A stretch of DNA of 64,000 bases from Treponema sp. Its GTDB lineage: Bacteria; Spirochaetota; Spirochaetia; Treponematales; Treponemataceae. The stretch covers positions 1 through 64,000 of the forward strand of contig JAEEVR010000003.1 in NCBI GenBank assembly GCA_016290995.1, given 5' to 3'. Position 1 is the stretch's first letter, and each line of letters opens with the position of its first letter. A program made the position numbers and the translations under genes. Below the pieces are notes generated by a model. The model was not told where the DNA came from. It did not search any database and saw nothing but the letters and a program-made list of their open reading frames with translations. This document shows positions 13,818-58,895 of this stretch, one piece after another.

Positions 13818-13837
13818 GAGCAAAAAGGATTTTGCTC
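13818..13837 (+). promoter_or_regulatory. flaB leader hairpin 2 (AGGA loop), candidate CsrA site
   Basis: Perfect 8-bp stem GAGCAAAA (13818-13825) / TTTTGCTC (13830-13837) with tetraloop AGGA, lying 16 nt before the Shine-Dalgarno AGGAGG (13853-13858), which is itself a GGA motif. This is the arrangement expected for CsrA repression of flagellin translation; no csrA or fliW gene is in the window. Confidence 0.55.
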
Positions 13838-13864
13838 ATCGACATATTTCCAAGGAGGAAATCT

Positions 13865-14725
13865 ATGGTTATCAACCACAACATGTCAGCTATGTACGCC
13901 AATCGTCAACTCGGCGTAACGGGTCTTGGTCTCTCCAAAGACATGGAAAAACTCTCTTCAGGCGAAAGAATCAACCGCGCAGGCGACGACGCTTCTGGAC
14001 TTGCTGTATCTGAAAAGATGCGCGCCCAGATCCGCGGCTTGAACCAGGCTTCAGAGAACGCCCAGAACGGCATCAGCTTCATTCAGACAACTGAAGGATA
14101 CTTGCAGGAAACAACAGACATCATGCAGCGCATCCGCGAGCTTGCCGTACAGGCTTCTAACGGAATCTATTCCGACGAAGACCGCATGCAGATTCAGGTT
14201 GAAGTTAGCGCCCTTGTTTCTGAGGTAGACCGCATCGCTTCTAGCGCCCAGTTCAACGGCATGAACATGCTCACTGGCCGCTTTGCCCAGCCCATGGGAG
14301 AAAACACTGTAACAGGATCTATGTGGTTCCACATCGGCGCCAACATGGACCAGAGAATGCAGGTTTTCATCGGAACGATGACAGCGGAAGCTCTTGGCGT
14401 TCGCGAAATCGGAACTGGCGACAAGATCACCTTGGCCGCTCCGGATGACGCCAACCACGCTATCGGCGTAATCGACGAGGCCCTCAAGAGAATCAACAAG
14501 CAGCGCGCCGACCTTGGCGCCTATCAGAACCGCATGGAATACGCCGTTCGCGGCCTTGACATCGGCGCTGAGAACCTCCAGGCTTCTGAAAGCCGCATCC
14601 GCGACACAGACATGGCCAGCCAGATGGTTGAGTTCACAAAGAACTCTGTCCTCCAGCAGGCCGGAACTGCGATGTTGGCCCAGGCTAACACACAGAGCCA
14701 GAACGTCTTGTCTTTGTTGAGATAG
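13865..14725 (+). CDS. flaB: Flagellin, FlaB-type filament core protein (copy 1)
   Basis: A 286-aa flagellin. The ATG at 13865 follows CCAAGGAGGAAATCT; the longer upstream frame is rejected. The N-terminal D0/D1 helix ([38 protein letters not shown]) and C-terminal helix (QNVLSLLR) are complete, and the short variable centre is typical of spirochaete FlaB proteins, which assemble the periplasmic filament core without a classic cleaved signal peptide. It differs from the second copy mainly in residues 125-195. The central phrase [24 protein letters not shown] is family-typical. Transcription is probably by sigma-28, and translation may be controlled by the two leader hairpins. A terminator separates it from copy 2. 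Confidence 0.96.
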
Positions 14726-14751
14726 TCTGACAGCTTAGGCATACAGCATTA

Positions 14752-14803
14752 AGAGGAGGGGACGGACAGGGAAGCCGATTGATTTCCTTGCCCTCCCCTT
14801 TTC
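14752..14803 (+). terminator. Probable terminator after first flaB
   Basis: An imperfect hairpin: GAGGGG...AGGGAA pairs with TTTCCTTGCCCTCCCC and is followed by CCTTTTCTG. The T run is short. Confidence 0.55.
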
Positions 14804-14818
14804 TGCGTGTAAAAAGCC

Positions 14819-14847
14819 TTGACAAATCAACAAAATCGGACTAAAAT
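14819..14847 (+). promoter_or_regulatory. Sigma-70 promoter for second flaB
   Basis: TTGACA (14819-14824), 17-bp spacer, TAAAAT (14842-14847). Unlike copy 1 this looks like a housekeeping promoter and would give a leader of about 220 nt. The 347-bp gap between the flagellin genes is filled by this promoter and leader structures; no small gene is seen. Confidence 0.7.
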
Positions 14848-14921
14848 TGTAGTAACTATAGGCGCGTTTTCAACCGCGCTTTGATCTTTGACATATACAA
14901 GCCAGCCATGCGCTGTGAGCG

Positions 14922-14970
14922 GCGGCAGAAAAAAGTGTTTCGTAAAACGCGAAGCATTTTTTCCTGCCGC
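14922..14970 (+). promoter_or_regulatory. Long leader hairpin upstream of second flaB
   Basis: Arms GCGGCAGAAAAAAGTGTTTCG (14922-14942, split here as two blocks in the pairing) and CGAAGCATTTTTT-C-CTGCCGC (14950-14970) form about 20 pairs with two G.U wobbles, one bulge and loop TAAAACG. Further hairpins follow: TGCCGG/CCGGCA (about 14986-15007) and CATTAC-AAGAC-GTAATG (15029-15045), ending 15 nt before the ribosome site. The mRNA leader is therefore highly structured. Confidence 0.6.
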
Positions 14971-15072
14971 AATGGGGTTGAAACGTGCCGGGGGCGCATA
15001 AACCGGCATCGCCCGCGCGAACAGGACGCATTACAAGACGTAATGTAGTTTATAACACATGGAGGGCTTAAC

Positions 15073-15921
15073 ATGATTATTAACCACAACATGAGCGCTA
15101 TGTATGCTAATCGCACACTTGGCATGTCAAATGACGCTATCATGGGCAACATTGAAAAACTTAGCTCTGGCGAAAAGATCAATCGCGCCGGCGACGACGC
15201 TTCAGGATTGGCCGTATCTGAAAAGATGCGCAGCCAGGTCCGCGGCTTGAACCAGGCTAACAGAAACATCCAGAATGGTGTTTCATTCATTCAGGCTACA
15301 GAAGGATACTTGCAGGAAACTACAGACATCCTTCAGCGCATCCGCGAACTTTCAGTGCAGTCTGCCAACGGAATCTATTCCGACGAAGACCGCATGCAGA
15401 TTCAGGTAGAGGTTTCTCAGCTTGTTTCTGAAGTTGACCGCATCGCTAGCCAGGCTCAGTTCAATGGAATGAATATTCTTACAGGCGGCTTTGCCGAGAA
15501 TTCTGAAAGAGTAATGCAGTTCCAGATTGGCGCCAACATGGACCAGAACGCGAGAGTGTACATCGGCACAATGACAGCCCAGGCTCTTGGACTCAAGGGA
15601 TCACAGGGCACAGACGAGCAGGTAAGCATTTCTACACCTGACAGCGCCAACATGGCGATTGGTACAGTGGACGCCGCGCTTACAACTGTTAACAAGCAGC
15701 GCGCGGATTTGGGCGCTTACCAGAACCGCTTTGAAATGGCCTCTAACGGCGTACAAGTTGCTGCCGAAAACCTTCAGGCCGCCGAGTCTCGCATCCGCGA
15801 CACCGACATGGCTTCTGAAATGGTTGAGTATACACGCAACCAGATTCTCACACAGTCTGGAACCGCTATGCTCGCTCAGGCCAACTCACAGTCTCAGAAC
15901 GTTCTCGGATTGTTGAGATAG
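15073..15921 (+). CDS. flaB: Flagellin, FlaB-type filament core protein (copy 2)
   Basis: A 282-aa flagellin closely similar to copy 1 in both terminal helices ([46 protein letters not shown]) and different in the surface-exposed middle ([15 protein letters not shown] against the corresponding stretch of copy 1). Treponemes usually carry two or three FlaB proteins in one filament. The start follows ATGGAGGGCTTAAC. Its promoter is of the housekeeping type, its leader is structured, and an 8-bp hairpin follows the gene before flaG. The DNA shows more CAG and TCT codons and fewer of the AAA/GCC-heavy codons seen in its neighbours, consistent with high expression. Confidence 0.96.
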
Positions 15922-20531: not shown

Positions 20532-21004
20532 CATTCCACACGTCCAGCGCGGAAGAAACCCAAGAACTGGGAAAACGCTTGGGCTCTTTTCTTAAGAAAG
20601 GAGACGTAATCGCGCTTCAAGGCCCCTTGGCGGCCGGAAAAACCACCCTTACAAAAGGCATCGCCCTCTCTTTGGGCGTCAAGGACACAATCACAAGCCC
20701 CACTTTTTGCTTGATCTCGGAATACGAAGGAAAAATTCCCCTTTACCATTTTGACGTTTACCGCTTGCAAGGAGCGGACGACTTTGCCAACTTGGGAGCG
20801 GAAGACATGATTTACGGCGACGGCGTTTGCTTGATTGAATGGAGCGAAAAGATAATGGACGAGCTTCCCAAAAAGACAATCATAATCAGGCTGGAAGTTT
20901 GCCAGGCGGACAAGGACGGCTCGAAAGACCCAAACGCCGCCGCCACGCGCCGCGCGATTTACATAGAAAACTGGCCCTACGAAAACTTTGGGGAGGCAAA
21001 ATGA
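20528..21004 (+). CDS. tsaE: tRNA threonylcarbamoyladenosine biosynthesis ATPase TsaE
   Basis: A 158-aa P-loop protein of the t6A-synthesis machinery. Motifs: Walker A GPLAAGKTTLTKG near residue 36, TSPTFCLISEY, HFDVYRL and IEWSEKI, all typical of TsaE. It regulates the TsaB-TsaD complex that modifies A37 of ANN-decoding tRNAs. It overlaps the upstream small gene and the downstream tsaB by 4 bp each. tsaD and tsaC are not in the window. Confidence 0.95.
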   Translation: MTFHTSSAEETQELGKRLGSFLKKGDVIALQGPLAAGKTTLTKGIALSLGVKDTITSPTFCLISEYEGKIPLYHFDVYRLQGADDFANLGAEDMIYGDGVCLIEWSEKIMDELPKKTIIIRLEVCQADKDGSKDPNAAATRRAIYIENWPYENFGEAK

Positions 21005-21825
21005 AAGCGCTAGCATTGGACACGGCGATTTCTTGCATACAAATCGCGGCAAAAAACGACGACTATTTGGCAAGCCTTACGCTGGACATCGGCATGAGGC
21101 AGAGCGAAAAGCTTTTGCCCGCCATCGATTATGTTTTAAAGCAAGCCGACTTAACGCCCGGCGACTTGGACTACACGGTTTTGACACAAGGCCCCGGCTC
21201 TTTTACGGGCTTGCGCTTGGGCTTTGCCGCGCTTAAGGCGATCGAGCTTTTTGGCGGAAAGAAGGCGGCGGACGAGAATTCATCGCAAGCCCAAAAGGCG
21301 GGCGCAAACGAAAACTCGTTCCAAGACCAAAAGGCGGGCGGCCGCTCAAAAATCCCCCTTTACGGAATAAATTCCTTGGACGCATATGCCTGGCCCTTCA
21401 TGGACTTTGACGGAATCGTACTCCCGATCATCGACGCGCATAAAGACAAGTTTTACGCAAAGGCTTTCTTAAACGGAAGCGAAATCCTCCCCTGCGACGA
21501 CTGGGACTTGCGCGCCCTGGAAGAAAAAGTTTTGGCCGCAAGCGAGAGCCTTTCGCAAGACCAAAAACTCGCGGCGAAAGAAACGATTCTAGTTTGCGGC
21601 CTTGAGGCAAAGGCTTTCGTTGACGCTTGCAAAGAAAACGATTTGTTCAAAGGAAAAAAAATCATCGCGCAAAGAGGCCGCGCAATTAGTTTGGAAAGCC
21701 TTTTCGCTTTGGCGGAAGAAAAAATTTCCAAGGGCCTTTCGCCGCTCGCCGACTACGACGGCCCCCAATACTACCGGGCCAGCGAGGCAGAGCGGAACGT
21801 CGCTGACGCTCCGTCCGCTCAATGA
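21001..21825 (+). CDS. tsaB: tRNA threonylcarbamoyladenosine biosynthesis protein TsaB
   Basis: A 274-aa TsaB, partner of TsaD in t6A formation. The ATG at 21001 overlaps the tsaE stop. Core motifs are ALDTAISCIQIAA, RQSEKLLPAIDYVL and TQGPGSFTGLRLGFAALKAIE. Compared with the family (about 220-240 aa) it carries an inserted pair of 12-residue repeats at residues 91-114 (DENSSQAQKAGA, NENSFQDQKAGG) and a related single copy at about 181-191 (SLSQDQKLA). These inserts correspond to a DNA repeat also seen in other genes here. They sit in regions that vary in the family and probably form surface loops. Confidence 0.93.
   Translation: MKALALDTAISCIQIAAKNDDYLASLTLDIGMRQSEKLLPAIDYVLKQADLTPGDLDYTVLTQGPGSFTGLRLGFAALKAIELFGGKKAADENSSQAQKAGANENSFQDQKAGGRSKIPLYGINSLDAYAWPFMDFDGIVLPIIDAHKDKFYAKAFLNGSEILPCDDWDLRALEEKVLAASESLSQDQKLAAKETILVCGLEAKAFVDACKENDLFKGKKIIAQRGRAISLESLFALAEEKISKGLSPLADYDGPQYYRASEAERNVADAPSAQ
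21271..21342 (+). repeat. 36-bp tandem repeat in tsaB (SQxQKAG family)
   Basis: Two 36-bp units (21271-21306, 21307-21342) share the core CAAG(C/A)CCAAAAGGCGGGC. A third, single, related copy is at 21541-21573 (TCGCAAGACCAAAA). Similar sequences occur at 57501-57533, 58708-58770, 35484-35513 and, in another frame, 9434-9502. Confidence 0.65.
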
Positions 21826-35283: not shown

Positions 35284-36453
35284 ATGCAAGAAAACGCCTT
35301 TTCTATAAATTACCAAAAGCAATATATCGCGACGCCAAAAAGCGAAATTCATTTTATCCAGGACAAAATCGACTTAAAAAAGCTTTTCTTTTCGCAAGCC
35401 AAAGATTGCCGCCGCCTTTTTACGCTTGACGCAAACGTGGCCGCCCTGCCCTGCCTTAAAAATTTCGTCGCGCTCTTCAGCTCAGACGGAAAACAAGACC
35501 AAAAAGCCGCCGCCAAAATCAAGCCCGGAGTTTACGATGGCTCAGGCGCGGCAAAAGGAAACGCTCTTGTCATCGTAAAGTCCGGCGAAAAATACAAAAC
35601 AATAAAGACGGTTTTGCAAATTGTAACGGCCGCGCTGGACCGCGCCTTTACCCGCAAAGACGTTTTCTGCGCGATCGGCGGCGGCGTTCTTACCGACATG
35701 ACAGCCTTTGCCGCTTCGCTTTACAAGCGCGGCGCGGTTTGCGAATTCGTTCCGACAACTTTGCTTGCGATGGTTGACGCCGCGATGGGCGGAAAGACAG
35801 GATGCGACTTTGACGACTACAAAAACATGATCGGGGCCTTTTACCCCGCCCGCGCGCTTTACGTTTACCCGGACTTTGTCCAAAGCCTTAACGAGCGCGA
35901 ATACCGATCGGGCTTTGCCGAAGCTTTTAAGACCGCTCTTCTTTACGACAAAAAAATGTTTTCCGAAATTTCAAAAAAGCGCGAGCTTGTAAAAAAGCGC
36001 GACAAGGCCTTTGTCTTTAAGATGATTCAGGCCTGCGCCAAGGCCAAGGCGCGCGTGGTTCAAAAGGACATGACCGAAAAAAACATCAGAATGCAGCTTA
36101 ACCTTGGCCACACATTTGGACACGCGCTTGAAACTTGCGCGGGTCTTGGAAAAGTGGCGCACGGCGACGCTGTCGCTTGGGGAATCAGCCGAGCGTTGGA
36201 GCTAAGTCAAAAGCTTGGCCTTTGCTCAAAAGAATACAAAGAAGAAGTTTTCGCCCTTTTGGATTATTTTGGATGGGAGACAAAAGCCGCTCCAAAATAT
36301 TTTTGCCCAAAAGACGGCGGCAAAAAAATTCTTGAGGCGATGCGCCGCGACAAAAAGAATTCATCCAACAAAATCCGCGTGATATTGCAGCGCGGCCTTT
36401 GCGATACAGTAATAACGGAAGTCTCCGACAAGGATATTTTAAAATGCCTGTAA
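35284..36453 (+). CDS. aroB: 3-dehydroquinate synthase
   Basis: A 389-aa AroB, second enzyme of the shikimate pathway. The NAD-binding segment is AIGGGVLTDMTAFAASLYKRG, the metal-site and substrate motifs are VPTTLLAMVDAAMGGKTGCD and KNMIGAFYPA, and LGHTFGHALE supplies the metal-binding histidine. The N-terminal domain holds an extra segment (DGKQDQKAAAKIKPG near residues 68-82) containing a QDQKA unit of the dispersed repeat seen in tsaB. The ATG has no ribosome site; the promoter geometry predicts a leaderless mRNA. It overlaps the cysteine desulfurase gene by 10 bp. Together with the DAHP synthase fusion it indicates de novo aromatic synthesis. Confidence 0.93.
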   Translation: MQENAFSINYQKQYIATPKSEIHFIQDKIDLKKLFFSQAKDCRRLFTLDANVAALPCLKNFVALFSSDGKQDQKAAAKIKPGVYDGSGAAKGNALVIVKSGEKYKTIKTVLQIVTAALDRAFTRKDVFCAIGGGVLTDMTAFAASLYKRGAVCEFVPTTLLAMVDAAMGGKTGCDFDDYKNMIGAFYPARALYVYPDFVQSLNEREYRSGFAEAFKTALLYDKKMFSEISKKRELVKKRDKAFVFKMIQACAKAKARVVQKDMTEKNIRMQLNLGHTFGHALETCAGLGKVAHGDAVAWGISRALELSQKLGLCSKEYKEEVFALLDYFGWETKAAPKYFCPKDGGKKILEAMRRDKKNSSNKIRVILQRGLCDTVITEVSDKDILKCL

Positions 36454-47288: not shown

Positions 47289-50075
47289 ATGAAAAACCAA
47301 GTTTTAACCTTTATTATTGCGATTTGTTCAATCGCTTTGGCCATTTTTGTCAACGGCTGCAAAACGGCGGAAAAATCGCCTGTGACGGCCCAAGAATTGA
47401 TTTTGGCCGGCGAAATCGACAAGGCAAAGGGCCTTTTTAGCAACCAGGCCGACATCAACAACGTTGACGAAGACGGAAACACCGCCTTGCACGCGGCGGC
47501 TAGAATCAACGATTCGGATTTGGTGACTTTCCTTGTGATAAAGGGAGCGGATTTGGAGCTTAAGAACAATTCCGGCGACACCGCCCTTCACGTGGCCGTA
47601 AAGTCCGACTGCTACGAATCTTCAAGAGCCTTGACCGGCTTGGGAGCGGACATTTTTGCCCTTGACGCGGAAGGAATCAGCGCCTTGGAAAGTTCGCTTG
47701 CCCGCGGCGACGTTTACTACGACATAATGATAAACGAAAAAACCGCTCAGCTTAAAGACGAAAACAACGGAAACGGCATCGTCCACTACTTTGTCAACAC
47801 GCAAAACAAAAAAGCGATCGACTATTGCGTGAACAAAAAAATCAACATCGACAAAAAGAATTCCAACGGCAAGACTCCCCTCGCGCTTGCGTTGGAAAAC
47901 CCAAAGAACATCGTCACCGCTCAAATCGCCGCCGAATTGATTTTGGCTGGAGCCGCTCCGGTTAACTGCGACGCAAAGTATTTTGAAGAAGCGGTGGAGC
48001 AGCGCAACATGTCGCTTAGAATGAGCGACGGACAGACGCCCCTTCACATGGCCGCGATTTACGGACACACAGGAATCGCGCAGTATCTTCTTGACAACGG
48101 AGCGGACACAAAGGCCCAAGACATTTCGGGCGCCACTCCCCTTCACGAAGCGGTCCGCTACGGAAGGACAGAAATCGTGTCGCAGCTTTTGGCCAACGGC
48201 GCCGACGTTAACGGAAAGGACAGCCTTGGAAAGACTCCCCTCTTGCTTTTGATTCCGCAGGACAAGCAAAACGAAATTTACTCAATCCTCTTGGCCAACG
48301 GCGCCAACGTCAACCAAAAGGACATGTACGGCGACACTGTTTTGCACGTCGCCTCGATGACAAAAATCAGCCCCGAAGTTTTGGGAATGTTCACAAGCGC
48401 CGGAGCGGACATCAACATCCGCAACAAAAAAGGCTTGACTCCCTTGGCCACCGCGATCGAGCACGGAGAGGCCGCGCAAGTCGCCTTCTTTGTTTCTAAC
48501 GGAGCGGACATCCACGCCGAAGACGCAAAGAAGACCACGCCGCTTATCAACGTTTTGCGCCGCCCGGACGACTTGTACAAGTCTTTGGTAATCAAAGAGA
48601 ACGCTTCAAGCACAGACTCGGAAGGCAACACTCCGCTTTTGGTCGCGCTTAAGCAGAACGCGGCTTACGAAAGAATCGAATACATCGCAAGCCTTGACTC
48701 AAACGTAAACGCGCGAAACCGCGACGGCGAAAGCGCCTTGTTTATCGCAGTTGAAAAGAACAACCGCAAGGCCGGCGAGCTTATGCTTTCACGCAACGCC
48801 GACATCTTTGCCGCCAACACGCAAAACATCTCTCCGCTTAGAAAATCTTTGGAAAGCCAAAACGGAAGCGAGCAATGGCTTTTGAATTCTTCAACCATCA
48901 CTGCCCGGGACGGAAGCGGAAACTCCGTCTTGCATTACGCCGCCGAATGGCAGCTTCCAAACGACACGCTTAACTTTTTGATTCAAAAGGGAGCGGACGT
49001 AAACGCGGTTAACGGAAACGGCGAGACTCCCCTCTTTAGCGCGGCCAAGGGCGACAACACTGACGCCATCGATTTGTTGGTAAAGCGCGGAGCGTCATTG
49101 AACGCCCGCGACCACTTGGGAAGCAGCCCCTTGCACGCGGCCGTCCGCTGGGACGCTTTGACCGCCGCCGAAAAGTTGATCAACCTTGGCTTTAACATTG
49201 ACAGCCAAAACGTAGGCGGAAAGACGCCGCTTGCCGAAGCCGCCGTTGAAGGAAACACGACTATGGCCCGCCTTTTGATCAGCCACGGAGCCAACCCCAA
49301 CGCTTACGACCAAAACGGCCGCACGGCTTTGAGCGACGCCATCAGAGGCGGCCAGTACGAAATGACAAAGCTTTTGCTTTCGGCCAAGGCCAATCCGCAA
49401 ATTCAAGACATGAACGGAAGGACGCCTTTCCACGAGGCGGCGACTATTGGCGACAAGGACATAATCGTTCTTTTAAGAAGAGCCGGAGCCAATCCGCTTT
49501 CGCGCGACAAGAGCGGCGTCACACCCCTTTCAATCGCGTTTGCAAAGGAGCCGGAAATCATGTACGCGGTTTTGGGAAATGACAAAATGATAGCCGACTC
49601 TGACGGAAACACGCCGATCCACATCGCCCTCCAGTCAAAGACAAACGTAACAATCCTTAAGTCTTTGATACAGCGCGGCTATCCGTTTGACACAAGAAAT
49701 TCTTCGGGCTACACGCCGCTTTCGATCGCCGCCGACACAAACCAAAAGGACGCCGCCGCCTTGCTTTTGGAAAAGGGCGCCGATCCTTTTGCGCAAACGT
49801 CAGCAAAGGGCGGCAGCGTGCTTTCAATGGCCTTTAACGAAAAGAGCGGCTACTTGCTTGGCTACATCGTAAAGAATTCGGCCGCAAAGACCGACATTCG
49901 CGGAAACACAATCTTGCACTACGCCGCTCGCATGGCCGACGAAGCGACAGTCGCCCGCCTGCTTAAGAACGGCCTAAGCAAAAGAGCCAAGAACGTAAGC
50001 GGCGAGACTCCTTACGACGTTGCGGTCAGTTGGAAAAAAGAAGGCAACGCGGCCTTGCTTGACCCCAACACATAA
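47289..50075 (+). CDS. Ankyrin-repeat lipoprotein (928 aa)
   Basis: A secreted protein of about 25 ankyrin repeats. The first 24 residues are a lipoprotein signal ending VNGC, so the protein is probably anchored in a membrane and faces the periplasm or outside. Repeats run from about residue 55 to 920 with the usual 33-residue period and consensus such as GQTPLHMAAIYGHTGIAQYL, GATPLHEAVRYGRTEIVSQL and GRTPFHEAATIGDKDIIVLL; a few are degenerate (about residues 110-240). Ankyrin stacks bind proteins, so a surface adhesin or periplasmic scaffold is plausible but undetermined. The start follows GCGGGGTGGATTTTT. It is a single gene ending in a strong terminator. Confidence 0.9.
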   Translation: MKNQVLTFIIAICSIALAIFVNGCKTAEKSPVTAQELILAGEIDKAKGLFSNQADINNVDEDGNTALHAAARINDSDLVTFLVIKGADLELKNNSGDTALHVAVKSDCYESSRALTGLGADIFALDAEGISALESSLARGDVYYDIMINEKTAQLKDENNGNGIVHYFVNTQNKKAIDYCVNKKINIDKKNSNGKTPLALALENPKNIVTAQIAAELILAGAAPVNCDAKYFEEAVEQRNMSLRMSDGQTPLHMAAIYGHTGIAQYLLDNGADTKAQDISGATPLHEAVRYGRTEIVSQLLANGADVNGKDSLGKTPLLLLIPQDKQNEIYSILLANGANVNQKDMYGDTVLHVASMTKISPEVLGMFTSAGADINIRNKKGLTPLATAIEHGEAAQVAFFVSNGADIHAEDAKKTTPLINVLRRPDDLYKSLVIKENASSTDSEGNTPLLVALKQNAAYERIEYIASLDSNVNARNRDGESALFIAVEKNNRKAGELMLSRNADIFAANTQNISPLRKSLESQNGSEQWLLNSSTITARDGSGNSVLHYAAEWQLPNDTLNFLIQKGADVNAVNGNGETPLFSAAKGDNTDAIDLLVKRGASLNARDHLGSSPLHAAVRWDALTAAEKLINLGFNIDSQNVGGKTPLAEAAVEGNTTMARLLISHGANPNAYDQNGRTALSDAIRGGQYEMTKLLLSAKANPQIQDMNGRTPFHEAATIGDKDIIVLLRRAGANPLSRDKSGVTPLSIAFAKEPEIMYAVLGNDKMIADSDGNTPIHIALQSKTNVTILKSLIQRGYPFDTRNSSGYTPLSIAADTNQKDAAALLLEKGADPFAQTSAKGGSVLSMAFNEKSGYLLGYIVKNSAAKTDIRGNTILHYAARMADEATVARLLKNGLSKRAKNVSGETPYDVAVSWKKEGNAALLDPNT

Positions 50076-50094
50076 CTGTTGCAAGACAAAAAAA

Positions 50095-50121
50095 CCGCCC
50101 GGTTTCGGGCGGCTTTTTTTT
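50095..50121. terminator. Rho-independent terminator after the ankyrin gene
   Basis: CCGCCCG (50095-50101), loop GTTT, CGGGCGG (50106-50112), then CTTTTTTTTT; A run on the left, so it also suits the convergent chemoreceptor gene. Confidence 0.9.
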
Positions 50122-57246: not shown

Positions 57247-58062
57247 ATGGAAGAGAGCGCGTTTTTTATCGGAAATTATTCTCAAAGCGGCCGCGAAGAC
57301 CTAGAAGACCTTGAGCTTTACGACCAAGTGAACGGAATCGGCGTCGGCGCCTTTTACGCTTGCCCAAACCTAAGCCGCGTGGTCTTGAACAAAAACCTAA
57401 ACTATGTTTCGCCGCTCGCCTTTGCCGCCTGCCCTTCCCTAAAAGAAGTCGTCGCGGACTCAAACATCATCGCGCTGGCGCCCAACGCCTTTGCGCGCGG
57501 ACAAAACGATTCGCAAGACCAAGAGGCGCGCGACTTGGCGCGAAAAATCCTTTTAAAGAACGTGTCCTACAAATGCGAAGACGGAATCGTATACAACGCC
57601 AAATGGCGCTCCCTTCTTTTTGCGCAAACGAAAGACTTGCGCTCGCTTGTTTTTCCGCGCGGAACAAAGTCGATCGGCTGGTACGCCTTTGACGGCTGCA
57701 GGGCCTTGGAAGAAATCGACATTCCGCCGACAGTCGAATGGATCGGCGAGCGCGCCTTTGCAAACTGTTCCAGCCTAAAAAAAATCTCGCTTACAAAAAG
57801 CGTCCAGCAAATCGGCCAGGCGGCCTTTATGAACTGCCGCTCGCTTGAAGAATTTAAAATCCCAAAAGGCGTGGAGCGAATCGAAGCCTTTACTTTTAGC
57901 GGCTGCGAAAATTTGCGCGCCGTGGAATTCCCTTCCAGCGTAAAATGCGTGGAAGAAAAAGCCTTTGAATTTTGCTCTAGCTTGGAAAAAGTCACGGTAT
58001 CAAAATGGTGCCAGGTGGAAGACGATGCCTTTGACAAGGGCGTGGAAATCCACCGCATCTAG
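57247..58062 (+). CDS. BspA-like leucine-rich repeat protein, cytoplasmic
   Basis: A 271-aa LRR_5 (BspA-type) protein. About nine repeats of 23 residues run from residue 25 to 265, for example GTKSIGWYAFDGCRALEEID, TVEWIGERAFANCSSLKKIS and SVQQIGQAAFMNCRSLEEFK. There is no signal peptide, unlike the surface BspA proteins of oral treponemes, so an internal or non-classical location is likely. A charged low-complexity loop (QNDSQDQEARDLARK, about 86-100) interrupts the repeats and carries the SQDQ-type dispersed repeat. Start after CAGGAAC. Confidence 0.88.
   Translation: MEESAFFIGNYSQSGREDLEDLELYDQVNGIGVGAFYACPNLSRVVLNKNLNYVSPLAFAACPSLKEVVADSNIIALAPNAFARGQNDSQDQEARDLARKILLKNVSYKCEDGIVYNAKWRSLLFAQTKDLRSLVFPRGTKSIGWYAFDGCRALEEIDIPPTVEWIGERAFANCSSLKKISLTKSVQQIGQAAFMNCRSLEEFKIPKGVERIEAFTFSGCENLRAVEFPSSVKCVEEKAFEFCSSLEKVTVSKWCQVEDDAFDKGVEIHRI
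57501..57533 (+). repeat. SQxQKA-type repeat in LRR gene
   Basis: ACGATTCGCAAGACCAAGAG matches the core of the tsaB repeat and is read in the same frame (SQDQEA). Confidence 0.5.
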
Positions 58063-58895
58063 CGGCGCAACACATCCACAAGGTGGCTTCCGGCGCCCAA
58101 AAGTTCCGGCCGCTCGGAAATTTCAAGCGCGTAGTTTTTAAAAAGCTCAAAGGTTTCTTCGTCCATCGCGTTAAGCTCGCGGCGCATGTAGTCGGCCGGT
58201 CCGTCGGGCGAAAATATTTTGACCCGCTCAAGGCCGCTCTTTTTTTGCAGGGTGTTTATGTCTTCCAATCTAACGTAGGAATACAAGTCGTCGTCGCGCG
58301 AAATCGTCTTAAAATTTTTGTCGATTTGCCCGGCCGCGATGTTCTCTTTGATTTTGTTTTGGCCAAAGCAGTATTGCGTGACGGCGTATTCGTTCATCGT
58401 GTAGGCGCAAAAAATCAAGCCGCCCTTTTTTGCGACGCGAGAGGCTTCGGAAAGCGCTTTTAGTTTGTCTTCTTCCGTGTGGAGGTGGTAAAGAGGCCCC
58501 AACATCAAGACGATGTCAAAAGTCGCGTCGTCCAAAAAAGAAAGGTCGCGGGCGTCGCCTTGCCAGCACTTTACTTTTTCGTGCTTGGCGCGTAGTTTTT
58601 CCAAATTGCTTTTTACAAGCTCAACGGCTGTCACGTCAAAGCCTTGCCTGCTAAGAGGAACGGAGTAAGCGCCGGTGGCCGCGCCGACGTCAAGTATTTT
58701 TAGCGCCTTGGCGGCGCCCGCTTCTTGGGTTTGCGAACAATTTCCGCTTGCCGCAGCCTCTTGGCCTTGCAAAGCCTTTTCGTTTGCGGCGGCCAAAATG
58801 TTTTTCATTGTAACAAAAAATTCGACTTGGCCGTGCCGCGTTTTAAGGCGGTGGTCCTCGTCGAATTTTTTGTAATATGATTCTAGGTTTGTCAT
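58059..58895 (-). CDS. Class I SAM-dependent methyltransferase
   Basis: A 278-aa protein. The ATG at 58895 is used (TTG 58898 is an alternative). SAM motif I is LDVGAATGAYSVPLS, with VTAVELVKSNLEKL (motif II acidic residue) and DIVLMLGPLYHL as motif IV. The substrate is unknown; the fold resembles small-molecule or UbiE-like methyltransferases. An insert of about 24 residues (QGQEAAASGNCS, QTQEAGAA, about 40-59) lies directly before motif I and is a 36-bp tandem repeat of the tsaB type. The gene overlaps the LRR gene tail-to-tail by 4 bp. Confidence 0.87.
   Translation of the reverse strand: MTNLESYYKKFDEDHRLKTRHGQVEFFVTMKNILAAANEKALQGQEAAASGNCSQTQEAGAAKALKILDVGAATGAYSVPLSRQGFDVTAVELVKSNLEKLRAKHEKVKCWQGDARDLSFLDDATFDIVLMLGPLYHLHTEEDKLKALSEASRVAKKGGLIFCAYTMNEYAVTQYCFGQNKIKENIAAGQIDKNFKTISRDDDLYSYVRLEDINTLQKKSGLERVKIFSPDGPADYMRRELNAMDEETFELFKNYALEISERPELLGAGSHLVDVLRR
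58708..58770 (-). repeat. SQxQKAG-family tandem repeat in methyltransferase gene
   Basis: On the minus strand, two 12-codon units (QGQEAAASGNCS and QTQEAGAA...) align base for base with the tsaB pair over most of 60 bp with the same 36-bp period and reading frame. Confidence 0.6.

Follow-up and report, generated by a model that had tools for sequence, protein, structure and literature searches.

Copies of the repeat in the window

The window, 64,000 nucleotides of a contig from a Treponema sp. (JAEEVR010000003.1), belongs to a 2.62-Mb draft genome of 56 contigs that is about 89% complete. The gene tsaB carries two copies of a short repeat in tandem and a third, degenerate copy in a second loop, and further copies lie in aroB, in a leucine-rich repeat (LRR) gene, in a SAM methyltransferase gene and in non-coding DNA (Table 1). 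A sequence-only reading of this DNA had noticed the tandem pair, the third related copy in tsaB and the near-copies in the three other genes. Coordinates and host families hold, and these copies form one dispersed family with those of tsaB. No match to Rfam was found within the window. Two adjacent ORFs (flagellin-like by eye) at positions 13832-15921 of the window are about 80% identical across 300 bp, with a spacing of 1208 bp.

Table 1. The tsaB gene and copies of the repeat in the window
Feature	Position	Strand	Remarks
tsaB gene	21001-21825	+	
tsaB copy 1, 34-bp element	21273-21306	+	core 21283-21303; encodes ENSSQAQKAG; insertion relative to relatives
tsaB copy 2, tandem at 36 bp	21309-21342	+	core 21319-21339; encodes ENSFQDQKAG; insertion relative to relatives
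tsaB third copy, degenerate	21543-21576	+	core about 21553-21573; SQDQKLA; second loop, also an insertion
tsaE 3'-end candidate copy, weak	20911-20944	+	3 mismatches; may be chance
aroB copy	35481-35514	+	core 35491-35511; GKQDQKAAA; in-frame insertion; absent from G183, G199, G050, G164 and outgroups
LRR_5 (BspA-type) gene copy	57501-57534	+	core 57511-57531; NDSQDQEAR
SAM methyltransferase copy 1	58749-58782	-	core 58752-58772; NEKALQGQEAAA
SAM methyltransferase copy 2, tandem at 36 bp	58713-58746	-	core 58716-58736; SGNCSQTQEAG; absent or shorter in G175, G064 and others
Non-coding degenerate copy	50069-50102	+	overlaps 5' side of a terminator-like hairpin just after ORF 47289-50075

Consensus and abundance of the repeat unit

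Alignment of 162 non-redundant copies gave a DNA consensus of ~34 bp (CRAAAANGNTTYGCAAGMCCAARAVGCGGSCSSC), with information spanning positions -10 to +23 relative to the core; this takes the place of the unit of 36 (or 18) bp first proposed. The consensus was built from matches to a fixed seed, and its information extends past that seed, to positions -10, -6, -5 and +21 to +23. These outer positions are retained in non-coding copies too. Many positions of the consensus are degenerate, and no long core recurs exactly in high copy number; the degenerate 21-base core is TYGCAAGMCCAARAVGCGSSC.

About 850 kb of the window genome (G000), roughly a third of it, was read base by base, as were ~400 kb of each of two sister species (G199 and G097), while for other species the orthologous loci were read, as stretches. 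With up to 3 mismatches allowed, the 21-bp core had 66 matches in the 850 kb (0-3 for reversed or permuted controls), which extrapolates to approximately 200 copies per genome. A search of the genome with an 18-mer (up to 3 mismatches) gave 64 matches against 5 for the reversed pattern, and the same search of the 64-kb window gave 4 against 0.09 expected. None of 1500 random genomic 18-mers reached the count of the core in the 850 kb (32 for the core; 99.5th percentile, 18). Several 10-mers were also over-represented in the 850-kb sample (GGCGGAACGG, TTGGGAGCGG, GGAACGGTAA and GACGCGGACG), which suggests additional dispersed repeats in this genome. A refinement of the motif by unsupervised position weights was set aside because it drifted towards overall codon composition.

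Neighbouring copies show a peak of spacing in direct repeat at 33-39 bp. Tandem pairs (32 and 18) outnumber inverted pairs (11 and 7), so the inverted arrangement is not favoured, and folding of the consensus into a hairpin was no better than that of shuffled sequences (z about 0). The repeat is thus not palindromic, as the sequence-only reading had held. A palindromic full-length form, suspected from the copies in rlmJ and aroB, was rejected, as inverted pairs are not enriched.

Coding frame and the case for a DNA unit

Among the 66 copies, 37 lie in the frame encoding SQxQKAG (QDQKA), 18 in other frames or antisense, and 11 in no called gene; a few of these 18 and 11 may be chance matches or miscalled. 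The proposal that all hosts share one frame therefore stands for the dominant frame but not for the remaining copies, which are out of frame, antisense or intergenic. Because copies occur in several frames, in antisense and between genes, the repeat unit is DNA and not a peptide motif. Intergenic copies at the 5' side of terminator-like hairpins, downstream of genes, are found at C38:108465, C38:137675, C14:63495 and C28:119660 of the window genome and at the non-coding site of Table 1.

Copies in coding sequence number 45 in sense and 10 in antisense. Shuffling of codons within genes left 2.5 in sense (maximum 7) and 1.2 in antisense (maximum 3), and the unit is hence far commoner than in codon-matched shuffles. 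Shuffling of synonymous codons, which preserves the proteins, left 14.8 in sense (maximum 18) and 1.9 in antisense. Low-complexity drift had been named as an alternative from the outset: codon bias and loops rich in Q, A and K would converge on similar DNA with no transposed unit. The host loops are indeed of low complexity and variable length, and composition contributes, as one in three sense copies survives the synonymous shuffles (14.8 of 45). However, antisense, out-of-frame and intergenic copies carry the same 34-bp consensus, including positions outside the search motif, and 190 of the 200 genomes of the genus lack the repeat. Drift is largely refuted by these observations, and we regard it as highly improbable. 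The excess of the sense SQxQKAG frame would reflect selection, both for copies that keep the frame and encode a hydrophilic Q/A/K-rich loop and against the hydrophobic loops that antisense copies would encode.

Distribution among spirochaetes

A 17-base word of the repeat had 34-146 matches in ten of 200 genomes of the genus and at most 15 in the others, with both strands used about equally. A stricter word, applied to a phylum-wide sample, was found 43, 71 and 65 times in three genomes of this group and 0 or 1 times in the other 293. The ten share 74-94% nucleotide identity in ten core genes and have about 60% identity to the outgroups G016 and G020; the most divergent member, G164, has the fewest copies (34, versus 91-146). 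By tsaB, the nearest named relatives are uncultured Treponema/Spirochaetaceae assemblies, several of them with rumen or reticulum isolate names. This clade comprises about ten Treponema species that live in the gut, largely in the rumen, and the repeat is confined to it; the other spirochaetes covered by the 200 genomes of the genus and the phylum sample lack it. One further member of the genus, G013, has an intermediate 15 matches (usually 0-9) and a TsaB without the insert; its count is due either to composition or to a distant remnant.

In-frame insertions in conserved enzymes

Two loops of TsaB carry between one and three units in most members of the clade; the first site is empty in one member, and neither insert occurs in 23 other species of the genus. 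PDB matches of TsaB end at residue 85, just before the insert. The AlphaFold model, built from eight sequences, is of low quality as a whole (mean pLDDT 59.5), with the insert (residues 82-120) below 50, as is much of the N-terminal half.

The sequence-only reading had placed the repeats in loops absent from family members. An alignment of tsaB and 12 further genes, which include aroB and the methyltransferase gene of Table 1, agrees with this: outgroup orthologues are without the motif, so the segments are not conserved in species that lack the repeat. In MnmG, AroB, Alr, NadE, PgeF, HemW and RlmJ the inserts are in frame, variable in copy number and found in the clade only. FolC, MutL, the methyltransferase, MurI and thiamine pyrophosphokinase (TPK) also have clade inserts; in some of these, loop length varies in outgroups as well, and MurI, TPK and the methyltransferase are the weakest cases for this reason. 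Filled and empty sites with intact flanks were identified in mutL (36 bp; filled in G199, empty in G175) and in aroB (27 bp; filled in G097, empty in G183). Of the 22 clean indels of 9 bp or more that separate G097 from G199, 18 have a length divisible by three, and several correspond to whole units of the element. These comparisons show that the coding copies are in-frame insertions, variable in copy number, in loops of conserved enzymes; a dispersed element in coding DNA was what had been proposed, and the family proves larger than claimed. Repeats of the GGGTCAAGCCCGAnnATGAC type also occur in frame in such loops (VRVKPEHDS and SPTMTDRASPTMTDR; pgeF of G132 and the thiamine pyrophosphokinase gene of G175), and the loops thus accept more than one repeat family.

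Origin and later evolution of the repeat

The flanks of the copies mismatch as in unrelated DNA, and no flank is common to them. In one sampled genome even the nearest copies are separated by at least 5 differences in 34 positions, and there is no fresh duplicate pair. The majority of copies are common to G097 and G199 (73 site comparisons filled, 7 empty and 4 partial, with some loci counted repeatedly). The comparisons revealed no clear case of a recent private gain, and several of the presence/absence differences resemble loss or recombination. Most copies look ancestral to the clade. Very probably, then, this is a short non-palindromic dispersed repeat of ~34 bp that multiplied in the ancestor of the clade and settled in intergenic and coding DNA. 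The main spread is placed in that ancestor because copies are mostly shared, have diverged to this degree and show no clear private gains. A very small repeat would have been inserted across the ancestral genome in a burst, as a pre-formed sequence and not by gradual drift, either by copy and paste or by a templated, microhomology-driven process. Later changes would comprise tandem duplication (in steps of about 33-39 bp), in-frame deletion, point divergence and recombination between species. Parts of G097 are closer to G000 than to its sister G199, pointing to such interspecies recombination. The repeat is probably a selfish or neutral element. G199 and G097 also differ by the presence or absence of segments 65-197 bp long, some of which contain short inverted repeats; these are possibly a MITE-like family.

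There are two other explanations. One is that the motif is a DNA site with a function (uptake-sequence-like, chromosome-organising or terminator-associated), selected across the chromosome and tolerated in genes. The near-equal use of the strands and the several intergenic copies adjoining terminator-like hairpins are in keeping with such a site, but the degenerate consensus, lacking a highly repeated exact long core, is not. Furthermore, sites that arise by point mutation would not come as indels and as tandem arrays of varying copy number, as these copies do, and we consider this explanation quite unlikely. Alternatively, duplication driven by the host, through ectopic gene conversion and slippage, could have spread ancestral loop repeats without a mobile element ever being involved. 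In its favour, the genomes show both tandem changes and interspecies recombination, and the clade has no Y1 transposase or reverse transcriptase that is present throughout. Against it, copies lie in unrelated genes and at intergenic sites without shared flanks, and gene conversion would need more homology than 34 diverged bases provide. Spread by host processes only is therefore rather doubtful.

As for the means by which an inserted repeat would have multiplied, an IS200-like Y1/RAYT transposase (PF01797) was detected in none of the ten clade genomes, several of which are incomplete. A reverse transcriptase was found in only two of the ten and is not associated with the clade. Searches of the clade genomes and of viral contigs yielded no transposase, reverse transcriptase or donor element tied to the repeat. 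A phage source was rejected, since 26 viral contigs had one match each and no multi-copy donor was among them. The junctions and indels compared had neither a consistent target-site duplication nor a fixed end. It is possible, and we suggest it only tentatively, that the repeat represents a new class of ultra-short, non-palindromic mobile DNA, which colonised the clade chiefly by in-frame insertion into housekeeping genes with machinery that involves neither an IS200/RAYT transposase nor a reverse transcriptase.

Comparison with known repeat systems

DUS/USS uptake sequences have a near-invariant core of 9-12 bp in about 1000-2000 copies. The Treponema repeat resembles them as a short motif dispersed across coding and non-coding DNA, but it is degenerate, has roughly 200 copies and undergoes changes of length. 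REPs are extragenic and palindromic, occur as inverted doublets and are linked to RAYT genes (PMC3116915). Like REP/REPIN elements, the Treponema repeat is short, dispersed and present in many copies, as singlets and clusters; unlike them, its copies are mostly intragenic, non-palindromic and in direct tandem, and all ten clade genomes are without a detected Y1 transposase. On the features tested, the repeat is neither a REP/REPIN nor an uptake sequence.

The small dispersed repeats (SDRs) of Nostoc, a subject of Elhai et al. in 2008, are reportedly about 21-27 bp long and mostly outside genes. The Treponema unit is likewise a short dispersed repeat with insertion polymorphism and is slightly longer (34 bp), whereas most of its copies are inside genes, the two being compared by description. 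The Nostoc SDRs are believed to be mobile, and one of them, SDR5, inserts precisely within HIP1 sites (PMC4390886). No fixed insertion target of this kind was seen at the indels between G097 and G199 or at the filled and empty junctions.

The Rickettsia palindromic elements (RPEs), to which the sequence-only reading had likened the repeat in idea, are dispersed in a single bacterial lineage, both in frame in conserved housekeeping proteins and between genes; they are 105-146 bp long, with terminal inverted repeats and long stem-loops (PMC2229807). The Treponema repeat is similar in its in-frame insertion into genes of conserved proteins whose orthologues outside the lineage are without it. It differs in its host, a spirochaete, in its tandem arrangement at 33-39 bp, and in palindromy and size, two defining features of RPEs: the unit is 3-4 times shorter and forms no hairpin beyond chance. 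No description of it was found in the open-access literature, and it ranks among the shortest dispersed sequences known to have become established within genes. Insertion of dispersed repeats in frame into working enzymes is best documented for RPEs. The Treponema repeat is a further case from a distant phylum and adds a much smaller, non-palindromic unit, with presence and absence at many sites among about ten related species. This clade makes it possible to test directly by what route units of this size multiply, how they are maintained in essential proteins and whether new protein loops arise from them.
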